From Truepera sp. bin119 (GTDB lineage: Bacteria; Deinococcota; Deinococci; Deinococcales; Trueperaceae): DNA of 46,303 nt. The notes under the pieces are model-generated. The model was not told the origin of the DNA, did no database searches, and was given only the letters and a program-made list of their open reading frames with translations. Numbering within the stretch: position 1 is the stretch's first letter; every line of letters starts with the position of its first letter. The stretch lies in NCBI GenBank assembly GCA_002239005.1, contig MPNL01000026.1:1-46303 (forward strand), in the 5' to 3' direction. Shown here in pieces: positions 32,746 through 40,819 of this stretch. Both the position numbers and the translations under genes were made by a program.

Positions 32746-33732
32746 TCAATCTCCTGCTCTCAGAACCTGCTCCCTCCTGAGGTTGCCAGGATCGGTCGCG
32801 GCCTCCCGTGGCACTGTGAAGGCGAACGTGTTTCCACCCTCCACCGGCTCTGCCCAAGCCCTCCCTCCCCAAGCGCTGGTGATCGAGCGCACGATATAAA
32901 GTCCTAAGCCGGTCCCTCTGACCTTGGGTGAGGGGCCGCGGGAGTGGAGTTCGAACAGCGTTTCGAGGTGGCCCGGCTCAAGCGGCCTGCCCCGATCCCG
33001 CACGGTCACACGTACGAAGTCGGGGGCATTGGGGTCGACCGCTGCAGCAACCTCCACGGTCGCGAAGTCGGGACCGTGAATGGCGGCGTTCTCAACTAAG
33101 TTGATAATGACTTGAAGGAGCTTGTCGGCGTCTGCCCAGACGGTCAGGTTGGGTACCTCGGCGGCAAGGCGTACCCCGTGCTCGTCGAGCGTCTGGAGCA
33201 AGACGCTCTGGGCCCGCCCGAGGATCTCGCTCAGAACCACCCTGCGCACCTTGGGAGGTGTCACGTCGACAGTGAGATCCTCAATAAGGCGGGTGAGGCG
33301 GGTACACTCCTCCACAGCCCGCCCAAGGAATCGGTCTCGCGTCTCACCGTCGAGCTCGAGTCGCAGGGTCTCGAGAGCAACACGAATTGAGGTGGTCGGG
33401 GTCCGGAGCTCATGCGAAAGTACCGCTAGGAGTTCCCGGGCACCCTCCTGGCTGGTTTTGACCTCAGTGACATCTCTAAGTGACAGGCCACCTCGAATCG
33501 GCGTCGCCAGAACCAAGCGACCGCGAGTTGCGACCTCGATCGGACGACCCTCGATGTAGGCGCGCTCGAGCCGATGGTCGCGCAGCACGGCGATAAGTGG
33601 CTGCCCTGGGACCGTCTGGAGGTCTACCTTGAGGAGTTCAGCCGCCGCCCGATTGAGGGCGATCACCCGTGCCTGATCGACCAGGACAACTCCCTCAGCG
33701 AGATCGTCGAACCAGGGTTCAGAACGGTTCAC
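32746..33732 (-). CDS. PhoR-like sensor histidine kinase, apparently soluble
   Basis: A 328-residue histidine kinase if begun at GTG 33732 (TTG 33741 and 33771 are alternatives). A PAS-like segment occupies residues 5-90 (PWFDDLAEGVVLVDQ). The phosphoacceptor is His107 in LAVLSHELRTP. The N-box is VIINLVENAAIHG. The G1 box reads RDRGRPL rather than DxGxG, and G2 is GTGLGLYIV. No transmembrane helix is present, unlike typical PhoR. It overlaps the end of phoB by about 14 bases, so the pair is translationally coupled. The role in phosphate signalling is inferred from phoB, phoU and the Pho boxes. Confidence 0.85.
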   Translation of the reverse strand: MNRSEPWFDDLAEGVVLVDQARVIALNRAAAELLKVDLQTVPGQPLIAVLRDHRLERAYIEGRPIEVATRGRLVLATPIRGGLSLRDVTEVKTSQEGARELLAVLSHELRTPTTSIRVALETLRLELDGETRDRFLGRAVEECTRLTRLIEDLTVDVTPPKVRRVVLSEILGRAQSVLLQTLDEHGVRLAAEVPNLTVWADADKLLQVIINLVENAAIHGPDFATVEVAAAVDPNAPDFVRVTVRDRGRPLEPGHLETLFELHSRGPSPKVRGTGLGLYIVRSITSAWGGRAWAEPVEGGNTFAFTVPREAATDPGNLRREQVLRAGD

Positions 33733-34393
33733 CGTCGACAAGCCGGTACCCCCGTCCGCGCACGGTCTCAATCAGCCCACTGCCGAGTTGGGATCGTAGC
33801 TGCGCCACGTGCTGATCCACCGTCCGCTCCGTGCCGATGAAATCCTCTCCCCACACGCGATCGAGGAGTTCGGATCGGGAGAACACCCGCCCCGGATGGA
33901 CAGCTAGGAAGCGGATCAACTCGAACTCCCGTCGCGTCAACTCCTTAGGAATCCCCCCCAGGCTCACCCGCCCCTGCCGGCTGTCCACCAGCAACGGCCC
34001 GATCTGCACCCTGTCAGCAGGTTGAATGCGCCTAAGCAGGGCGCGTACCCGTGCCACCAACTCCGCGACACTGAAGGGTTTGACCAGATAGTCGTCGGCT
34101 CCAGACTCGAGGCCCTCGATGCGATCCATCTCCGTGGCGCGGGCCGTCAACATCAGGACTGGAACCTCCGCCCCCGAATTCTGATCGCGCAGCCTTCGAA
34201 GGAACACCAGTCCAGGCTCATCCGGAAGCATCCAGTCCAACACCACCAGGTCGGCGTTACCGACAGAAGGCCAAGCAGAGGTTGCAGAGTCGGCCTCAAT
34301 CACCTGGAAACCGGCTCGTCTAAGGTGGAAGCCGACCAGCTCCCGAACAGCGGCGTCGTCCTCAAGGACCAGCACCCGCCCTCCCCTGTTCAT
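33719..34393 (-). CDS. phoB: PhoB-like phosphate response regulator
   Basis: A 224-residue OmpR/PhoB-family regulator. The receiver domain (6-120) has the acidic pocket E11-D12-D13, phosphoacceptor Asp53 in DLVVLDWMLP, VLMLTARAT and the lysine in YLVKPFS. A winged-helix DNA-binding domain (about 130-220) contains LTRREFELIRFLAVHPGRV, FSRSELLDRVWG and TVDQHVAQLRSQLG, close to PhoB. The gene is divergent from phoU and its upstream region carries a Pho-box-like repeat just before TACAAT (34446-34451), suggesting autoregulation. Confidence 0.9.
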   Translation of the reverse strand: MNRGGRVLVLEDDAAVRELVGFHLRRAGFQVIEADSATSAWPSVGNADLVVLDWMLPDEPGLVFLRRLRDQNSGAEVPVLMLTARATEMDRIEGLESGADDYLVKPFSVAELVARVRALLRRIQPADRVQIGPLLVDSRQGRVSLGGIPKELTRREFELIRFLAVHPGRVFSRSELLDRVWGEDFIGTERTVDQHVAQLRSQLGSGLIETVRGRGYRLVDGEPF

Positions 34394-34453
34394 GCGACTA
34401 CCAGGTTCCTTCGGTTGCCCTGACTCGCACCCATCCGAGTCATTGTATCTCGG

Positions 34454-34474
34454 TCGCCGTCAGGTCTCCGTCAG
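34454..34474 (-). promoter_or_regulatory. Pho-box-like direct repeat facing phoB
   Basis: On the minus strand two half-sites (CTGACGG and CTGACGG) are spaced 11 bases apart, the helical spacing of PhoB boxes. Two bases after the second repeat unit lies the -10 TACAAT of phoB. It matches the phoU-facing copy at 20 of 21 positions in opposite orientation. Confidence 0.7.
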
Positions 34475-34510
34475 GGGAAACGGCTGTCCATAACGTCCCC
34501 CATCACACAG

Positions 34511-34531
34511 CTGACGGAGACCTGACAGCGA
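34511..34531 (+). promoter_or_regulatory. Pho-box-like direct repeat facing phoU
   Basis: CTGACGG at 34511 and CTGACAG at 34522 form an 11-base direct repeat, and ATGACA at 34533 continues the same spacing as a third half-site. ATGACA (34533-34538) can also act as the -35, 16 bases before TACGCT (34555-34560). Confidence 0.7.
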
Positions 34532-34532
34532 A

Positions 34533-34560
34533 ATGACATACTCGTGGGCTATGGTACGCT
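34533..34560 (+). promoter_or_regulatory. phoU promoter, near-leaderless
   Basis: ATGACA (34533-34538) and TACGCT (34555-34560) are 16 bases apart. The -10 ends 8 bases before ATG 34569 and no Shine-Dalgarno is present. Confidence 0.5.
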
Positions 34561-34568
34561 CGACGGCT

Positions 34569-35207
34569 ATGGACACCCTCAATCAGGACCTCCTGGAGAT
34601 CAACGCTTCCACGGTCCGCATGCTCAGCCAGGTTCGAGAGGCGGCGGGCCTCGCTCAGCAGGCTCTCATCCAGGCTGACCTTGAGGCTGCGCAAAAATGC
34701 ATCGAAGGCGACGACGCCATCGACAAACTTATGAGACAGCTCGAGAAACAGATCCTGATCATCATCGCCCGACGACAGCCGGCTGCCAGAGACCTGCGCT
34801 TCCTGGGGGCCATCTATCGCTCCCTCGCAGACATCGAACGGGCGGGGGATTATGCGGTGCGGGTGGCACGCGCCGCCAGGGCCCTGGCCCAGAAGCCGCC
34901 GCTAAAGAAGTACCTCGACATGGAGCGAATCCTCACCGTGATCAGCACGATGATCGAGGTGACCATTAAGGCCCTAGCCGAGTCCGATATCGAGGTCGCC
35001 AAGCAGGCGTGGGCCATGGACAATGAGATCGACGATCTCTACCAGCAGATCGAGCGTGAGCTACTCACCTATATGATCGAGGACCCCCACACCATAAGCG
35101 TCTCGACCCAACTGCTAAGCATCGGTCGCTACCTCGAGAGGTTCGGAGACCATATCGAGAACGTCGACGAACACATCATCTTCTGGCTCACGGGCGTGCG
35201 GCTTTAG
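34569..35207 (+). CDS. phoU: Phosphate signalling protein PhoU
   Basis: A 212-residue all-helical PhoU with two homologous three-helix halves. The conserved pattern EGDDAIDKLMRQLEKQIL plus ARDLRFLGAIYRSLADIERAGDYAVRVAR is in the first half. AMDNEIDDLYQQIERELLTYM plus LLSIGRYLERFGDHIENVDEHIIF is in the second. The E/D-rich stretches bind metal. PhoU links PstSCAB transport to PhoR and restrains the Pho response; pst genes are not in this window. ATG 34569 is chosen on PhoU N-terminal similarity and the -10 spacing; an ATG at 34533 is rejected because it falls within the promoter. Confidence 0.93.
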   Translation: MDTLNQDLLEINASTVRMLSQVREAAGLAQQALIQADLEAAQKCIEGDDAIDKLMRQLEKQILIIIARRQPAARDLRFLGAIYRSLADIERAGDYAVRVARAARALAQKPPLKKYLDMERILTVISTMIEVTIKALAESDIEVAKQAWAMDNEIDDLYQQIERELLTYMIEDPHTISVSTQLLSIGRYLERFGDHIENVDEHIIFWLTGVRL

Positions 35208-39271: not shown

Positions 39272-40819
39272 ATGGCAGATCACATCCTGCCCTCCACCCC
39301 CGCCCCGAGGGCCGAACTCCCTACCCTCGGCCCCATCACCGAACAGCCCAGAGGCTTCGACCTGTTCCGGCTCCCGGGCATCAGACACTTAGTCCGCTGG
39401 AAGTACGCCCGCTTCGCCTTCCAGCTACCCCTGCTGATCCTGGCGCTACTCGTCATCATCGACGGCTTCACGGGCCGCCAGCTGGCCCCGAGAAATGTGG
39501 CCACTACCAGCGTGTGGCTGCACTACCGTGGATTGGTGGTGCTCGCGCTGGCGCTCTTCGGAAACGCCTTCTGCGCCGCCTGCCCCCTGATGTTGACGCG
39601 GGGCGCCACCAACCGATTGAAGCGGATCCTACCCGACATCGAATGGCCCCGGGCTCTGCAGAATAAGTGGTTTGTCGGAAGCCTCACCCTGATCTACCTG
39701 TTCAGCTATGAGTACTTCGACCTCTGGGCAAGCCCCTACTTGACGGCCTGGCTTGCCGTCGGCTATTTCGGAGCGGCGCTCGTGGTCGATGCCCTGTTCC
39801 CGGACGGAACCTTCTGTCGCTTCGTATGCCCGCTGGGCAACTTCAATTTCGCGCTGTCGAGTGCCTCTCCGACAATGATCACCGCCATAGACCACGACCT
39901 GTGTCGGCAGTGCAAGCATAAGCCGTGCCTCCACGGGCGCGAGACACGGGCGGAGGGGGCGGGAACCGGGCGCGCAGCCTTCATCCCACTAGCCGAGATC
40001 ACTCACGCGAACAGCGAGGGCTACTTCCCCGGCTGCGAAACCAACCTGTTCGTCCCCGCAATCCAGTCCAACATGGACTGCACCAACTGCTTCAACTGCG
40101 TGCGGGCCTGCCCCTACGACAACGTGGCGCTGACCGTGCGGGCACCCTGGTGGGAGCTTACACGGGCCCCCTGGCAGCAGCGGGGGCGGTTGGCAGTGAT
40201 GGCCTTCGCGGTGCTTCTCACCTACTGGGGGCTCCTCAACGCAGCGGCTATGGTCGGGCCATTCTTTGACCTAGCCCAGAGCATCTCGCGCGCGCTCTCG
40301 AGCGAGAGCGAACTGGTTGTCCTTGGTGCGCTCTTCCTGCTAGTCACCGCAGTGGGGCTCCTCACCTCTATGGCAATCTCCACGGTGGCCGATCTTCTCG
40401 GTGGGGCGGGCTTCCACCCGTGGCGCGCCCTCCAGCGGTGGGGGTACGTCACCCTCGCCCTTGGGGTCGGCTTCTGGGGCGCCCACTACCTGTTCCACTT
40501 CCTCACCGGAGCGCTGTCGGCAGCGCCGGTCTTCGCGCACTTCTTCGAGTACAGGGGCTTCGCTGTCGACCCAAACTGGCGTCTAGCCCAGATGGTGCCG
40601 ACGCGCTGGCTCTTCCCGATAACAGCCTCCTTCACCGTTGCCTATACCCTGCTGGCAAGCTATGTCACGATCTGGATCGGGCTGCGGGACTTTGACCGGC
40701 GTGGAGTACTGGCCATCTGGCCAGTACTCCTCTTTGTACTGGCCTTCGCCAGCCTAGCGCTGCTGGTGTTGGCCCAACCGATGGAGATGCGAGGGACCAT
40801 CCTCGGCCCGAGCTACTGA
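39272..40819 (+). CDS. FixG/NapH-like membrane polyferredoxin
   Basis: A 515-residue inner-membrane protein with about nine helices and a cytoplasmic-type Fe-S segment in the middle. CxxCP-type motifs occur at C101/C104 and C182/C186 (CRFVCPLGN). A cysteine set C211, C214, C219 plus C255, and the ferredoxin motif C270-C273-C276-C280 (CTNCFNCVRACPYDN), can hold two 4Fe-4S clusters. Relatives include FixG/CcoG, reported to reduce Cu(II) for cbb3 oxidase assembly, and NapH/NosR electron carriers. Adjacent CopC, CopD and FixH-like genes favour a copper-reduction role (inference). Four or five extra C-terminal helices exceed normal FixG. Confidence 0.8.
   Translation: MADHILPSTPAPRAELPTLGPITEQPRGFDLFRLPGIRHLVRWKYARFAFQLPLLILALLVIIDGFTGRQLAPRNVATTSVWLHYRGLVVLALALFGNAFCAACPLMLTRGATNRLKRILPDIEWPRALQNKWFVGSLTLIYLFSYEYFDLWASPYLTAWLAVGYFGAALVVDALFPDGTFCRFVCPLGNFNFALSSASPTMITAIDHDLCRQCKHKPCLHGRETRAEGAGTGRAAFIPLAEITHANSEGYFPGCETNLFVPAIQSNMDCTNCFNCVRACPYDNVALTVRAPWWELTRAPWQQRGRLAVMAFAVLLTYWGLLNAAAMVGPFFDLAQSISRALSSESELVVLGALFLLVTAVGLLTSMAISTVADLLGGAGFHPWRALQRWGYVTLALGVGFWGAHYLFHFLTGALSAAPVFAHFFEYRGFAVDPNWRLAQMVPTRWLFPITASFTVAYTLLASYVTIWIGLRDFDRRGVLAIWPVLLFVLAFASLALLVLAQPMEMRGTILGPSY

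Follow-up and report, generated by a model that had tools for sequence, protein, structure and literature searches.

The region between phoB and phoU is very probably a divergent pair of promoters under PhoB control. Two 21-nt elements, CTGACGGAGACCTGACGGCGA at 34454-34474 on the minus strand and CTGACGGAGACCTGACAGCGA at 34511-34531 on the plus strand, were located by searching the window, which is the whole stretch of 46,303 nucleotides that was analysed. They point outward, one toward phoB and one toward phoU, lie 36 nt apart and are identical at 20 of 21 positions, just as a sequence-only reading had described them. Both consist of two direct repeats with a period of 11 nt and the core CTGAC. 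No further match with up to three mismatches is present in the 46-kb window, 0.01 being expected by chance, and two matches to the element were not obtained in any of 100 shuffles. The elements and their surroundings are as follows.

32746-33771, minus strand: phoR-like sensor kinase gene (PAS-HisKA-HATPase, Pfam), overlapping the 3' end of phoB
33719-34393, minus strand: phoB, response regulator of the OmpR/PhoB family, 224 aa (Pfam Response_reg and Trans_reg_C)
34442-34447, minus strand: predicted phoB -10 element TACAAT, placed at +27 relative to the first half-site
34454-34474, minus strand: predicted Pho box of the phoB promoter, CTGACGGAGAC-CTGACGGCGA; tandem kept 5' of phoB in relatives
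34511-34531, plus strand: predicted Pho box of the phoU promoter, CTGACGGAGAC-CTGACAGCGA; tandem kept 5' of phoU in relatives
34533-34537, plus strand: ATGAC, claimed earlier as a third half-site; present in the window, overlapping the phoU -10 element
34537-34542, plus strand: predicted phoU -10 element CATACT, at +26 from the first half-site; family consensus CANNCT
34555-34560, plus strand: TACGCT, a further -10-like motif ending 8 nt ahead of the phoU start codon, with conservation anchored on that codon; candidate leaderless promoter
34569-35207, plus strand: phoU, full-length (TIGR02135, 188.4 bits versus a cut-off of 130.25)

Genes and proteins around the boxes

The identity of the flanking genes had been read correctly from the sequence, with a PhoB-type regulator on the minus strand (by best NCBIfam match) and a PhoU, scoring above the TIGR02135 cut-off, on the plus strand. 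The best of the 84 NCBIfam families matching the phoB product is TIGR02154 (PhoB), but with 236 bits the protein misses the equivalog cut-off of 296.2 bits. The best matches of the PhoR-like kinase, PnpS and PhoR, are each below cut-off as well, so that PhoB and PhoR are named here from their best matches, their gene neighbourhood and the regulon. According to Pfam and an alignment with E. coli PhoB, the regulator possesses a winged-helix effector and a receiver with the phospho-acceptor Asp, the Thr and the Lys, the residues D12, D53, T83 and K105 being retained. The ATG at 34533 was rejected as start of phoU, since homologues align from 34569 and 34533 is located inside the promoter.

Most likely, the cell switches on phoB and phoU together in low phosphate. 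Under phosphate scarcity, PhoB would be phosphorylated by the PhoR-like kinase, and a head-to-tail dimer of PhoB~P would occupy each Pho box in the -35 region. PhoB~P would then activate its own operon via the minus-strand box and TACAAT, and phoU via the plus-strand box and CATACT, the two boxes acting as separate units, one per promoter. This mechanism would be an ordinary one, positive autoregulation in which phoU, a negative regulator, is induced at the same time. We infer PhoB binding, activation as opposed to repression, and phosphate dependence at both boxes from the sequence comparisons given below, by which the earlier proposal that PhoB controls itself and phoU is well supported.

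Several other features were noted in the window. The PhoR-like kinase (32746-33771, minus strand) is without a hydrophobic stretch comparable to the one that anchors E. coli PhoR in the membrane, the best 19-aa hydropathy being 0.98 versus 2.46, and it appears to be soluble. A small terminator-like palindrome, TGACTCGCACCCATCCGAGTCA, adjoins the phoB -10 element at 34421-34442. The translation of 39272-40819 (plus strand) reads as a membrane protein carrying a pair of ferredoxin-like cysteine motifs, located next to CopC/CopD-like genes. An Rfam scan of the window gave no match.

Conservation of the boxes and the predicted regulon

The source genome is a 3.2-Mb draft, and its nearest named relatives are metagenome assemblies of Trueperaceae (Deinococcota). 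The phoU neighbourhoods of the source genome and 29 relatives, 30 genomes in all, were scored for tandems of [CAT]TGAC with an 11-nt period. Perfect tandems were found not more than 130 nt 5' of phoU in 21 of the 30 genomes, while 0.055 were expected from dinucleotide shuffles. For phoB the corresponding figures are 18 of 24 genomes and 0.02; since the genomes share ancestry, neither count consists of independent trials. The sequence around the boxes differs widely among most relatives, and in about one quarter of them a clear box is missing on one side. On this comparative evidence the repeats, which had been likened to a PhoB box for their 11-base period, are of the PhoB type on both sides. 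In 14 genomes from other families of the order, no clear box was detected 5' of phoU, and phoB precedes phoU with both genes pointing the same way. The divergent arrangement thus appears to belong to Trueperaceae.

If the boxes are bound by PhoB, the repeat was expected at pst and pho genes elsewhere, and this is where it was found. The exact core CTGACN6MTGAC occurs at seven places in the 3.2-Mb genome, four of which are at phoB, phoU (two overlapping registers) and pstS. The pstSCAB genes reside on another contig, where pstS is preceded by CTGACAGTAGG-ATGAC, that is CTGAC-N6-ATGAC; the same arrangement of box and -10 element is present at pstS in most relatives. Allowing one mismatch made the genome-wide search uninformative (53 matches versus 50 for the control). 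A stricter pattern combining box and -10 element, CTGACNNNNNCMTGACRN{8,10}TANNNT, yielded 31 matches in 39 genomes of the family, and the reversed pattern used as control yielded none. Of these matches, twelve are found before phoB and about eight before pstS-type genes. Further targets are genes for four Ugp-type ABC permeases (with a weak family score for the one scanned), one UgpB-like protein, two PhnD-type proteins scoring above the TIGR01098 cut-off and one PhnS2-like protein, so that nearly all of the 31 targets are phoB, pstS, PhnD-type, Ugp-like or other phosphorus-uptake genes. Because phoB and pstS had helped to shape the pattern, it is the phn, ugp and TIGR00975-type pstS targets that test it independently. 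The resulting consensus, CTGACRNNNNC-[CA]TGACR followed by TANNNT at +26/27, defines the Pho box by comparison in a little-studied family that branches deeply, and has enough specificity to recover a large part of the regulon in the family's genomes. One or two of the matches concern a glycosyltransferase-like gene, identified by eye, which box and -10 element directly precede in one Trueperaceae sequence (L122) and probably in a second (L119); control of this gene could perhaps reflect a phosphate-saving change of the envelope.

Other readings of the two boxes were considered. They could form one composite operator, in which PhoB molecules at the inverted sites 57 nt apart interact by looping or cooperative contact and couple the promoters. 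The near-perfect inverted symmetry in the window would fit such an operator, which we nevertheless regard as improbable. While the two boxes of the source genome share 20 of 21 positions, those of 14 relatives match each other at just 10-15 of 21, and a functional constraint on their near-identity was rejected for this reason. The spacing is equally variable, the distance from the phoB start to phoU ranging from 89 to 963 nt. In two relatives (L053 and L054) the genes are 600-960 nt apart and each retains its own box, and the same is true for G011, where phoB and phoU are located on different contigs (L034 and L127). The persistence of each box in genomes in which the genes lie apart indicates that the boxes are independent.

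Another reading takes PhoB as a mere neighbour and assigns the boxes to a different regulator of the OmpR family. Direct repeats of about 10-11 bp are common among these regulators, and the score of the window PhoB below the PhoB equivalog cut-off leaves room for this reading, but the targets of the box are phosphorus-uptake genes and the box tracks phoB itself, which makes it highly improbable. Finally, the arms are complementary at 20 of 21 positions, as they would be in a chance or structural inverted repeat, a terminator or cruciform to which no regulator binds. This explanation has hardly any chance of being correct, since the elements are conserved as direct repeats phased with a -10 element and not as a palindrome, and the pstS box is present in a single orientation. 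Control of two separate promoters by PhoB is therefore the preferred reading.

Promoter elements and a second phoU promoter candidate

At phoB, phoU and pstS, the box occupies the -35 region, and a -10 element is found where one is expected for a Pho box, some 15-17 nt beyond the point at which the last repeat starts. The -10 element claimed directly after the phoB-side box is indeed there (TACAAT), and nearly every relative with a box has TANNNT 15-16 nt past the start of the second half-site of phoB. In the family, this mostly TANNNT element of phoB is placed one nucleotide later than those of pstS and phoU. The pstS gene of the source genome has TACACT at +26, and TANNCT is found at that place in the family. 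When 25 phoU promoters were aligned on their half-sites, the -10 element spanned +26 to +31, with A at the second and T at the sixth position both kept in 24 of them and C at the first position in 17. The third half-site of phoU, which had been proposed to double as the -35 element, was rejected: ATGAC or TGAC is present at that place in only one of the 25 promoters, that of the source genome, and the element conserved there in 24 of 25 is the -10 element. A difference in promoter strength had also been suggested. A weaker phoU promoter is plausible, because its -10 element starts with C in 17 of 25 cases, but this is a different reason from the one put forward; the geometry is nearly alike at phoB and phoU (+27 and +26). 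A generic sigma-70 scan of 34380-34620 found no promoter, which is no surprise for promoters that depend on an activator and have no consensus -35 element.

Closer to phoU, the motif TACGCT overlaps TATGGT at 34550-34555. In an alignment anchored on the start codon, T at -14 is present in 28 of 30 rows, and [TC]ATGNTANGCT is conserved from -19 to -9. In Deinococcota, including Deinococcus, TANNNT adjacent to open reading frames drives leaderless genes (PMC12340547). The phoU gene might accordingly have stacked promoters, a PhoB-dependent one consisting of box and CATACT, and a PhoB-independent, leaderless one at TACGCT, which would add to divergent control by PhoB and to which we assign somewhat less than an even chance. 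PhoU would then still be made in high phosphate, when it would be needed to keep PhoR off. The fixed distance of [TC]ATGNTANGCT from the start codon, compared with a box-to-start distance varying from 52 to 58 in most genomes, argues for a second promoter, as does the lack of a Shine-Dalgarno sequence upstream of phoU, pstS having GGAGG. On the other hand, TANNNT is exact at -14 in just about half of the genomes, some having TATGAT at -19 instead, and the motif could be part of the 5' end of the first phoU transcript. The position of the candidate TANNNT a few nucleotides before the reading frame resembles that at the leaderless genes of Deinococcota (PMC12340547), but in phoU it would represent a second start downstream of a regulated Pho promoter.

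Comparison with known Pho systems and a tandem behind pstS

The predicted control of phoB and phoU is of a textbook type, here in a little-studied bacterial family. In E. coli, the Pho box is composed of 11-nt direct repeats, PhoB is autoregulated and pstSCAB-phoU belongs to the regulon (PMC4415409, PMC10294691). As at E. coli phoB, pstS and phoA, two 11-nt direct repeats are found in Trueperaceae at sigma-70-type promoters of phoB and pst. The core is CTGAC[A/G] compared with CTGTCA in E. coli, although the E. coli phoB promoter, when its sequence was read, was seen to hold the tandem CTGTCATAAAT-CTGACGCATAA, which includes a CTGAC repeat. Among the aligned sequences of the family, the recognition helix of PhoB (RTVDQHVAQLR) shows few changes and is close to invariant, paralleling the conserved CTGAC. 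In the E. coli helix, RTVDVHIRRLR, the residues V197, R200 and R201 correspond to Q, A and Q in the window PhoB, and these replacements may be the cause of CTGAC instead of CTGTC. Also unlike in E. coli, phoU is separated from pstSCAB and divergent from phoBR. In other phyla, including Streptomyces (GTTCACC) and Bacillus, PhoB/PhoP homologues use 11-nt direct repeats with a lineage-specific core (PMC4415409), which in Streptomyces and Bacillus differs from the CTGAC of Trueperaceae. While complex operators with extra repeats have been described in Streptomyces, promoters here generally have a single, simple tandem. Literature searches for a Pho box in Deinococcus, Thermus or Truepera retrieved no direct paper.

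A Pho-like tandem was also observed directly after the stop codon of pstS, in the pstS-pstC interval (L087, 4985-5062, minus strand; G000 contig C66). It reads CTGACAGAGCT-CTGAA in the source genome and [CT]TGAC-N6-[CT]TGA[CT] in others, is followed by TANNNT at +26/27 in most, and is placed at the foot of a strong hairpin (z -4.1 in the source genome). The tandem is present in 8 of 19 genomes versus 0.004 expected, the relatives carrying it being L095-L098, L101 and L106-L108. This predicted internal promoter is a more unusual by-product of the analysis than the phoB and phoU boxes. Its predicted start lies inside the 5' arm of the hairpin, and transcripts from it would therefore escape the pstS terminator. 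It is tempting to speculate, though we consider it more apt to fail than to hold, that gene ratios in Trueperaceae are set by promoter placement and not by box strength: phoU would have a conserved, weakened -10 element (CANNCT) and a second, leaderless promoter, and pstCAB would be served by a separate Pho promoter inside the pstS terminator, whose transcripts would be missing the hairpin's 5' arm and so avoid being terminated.
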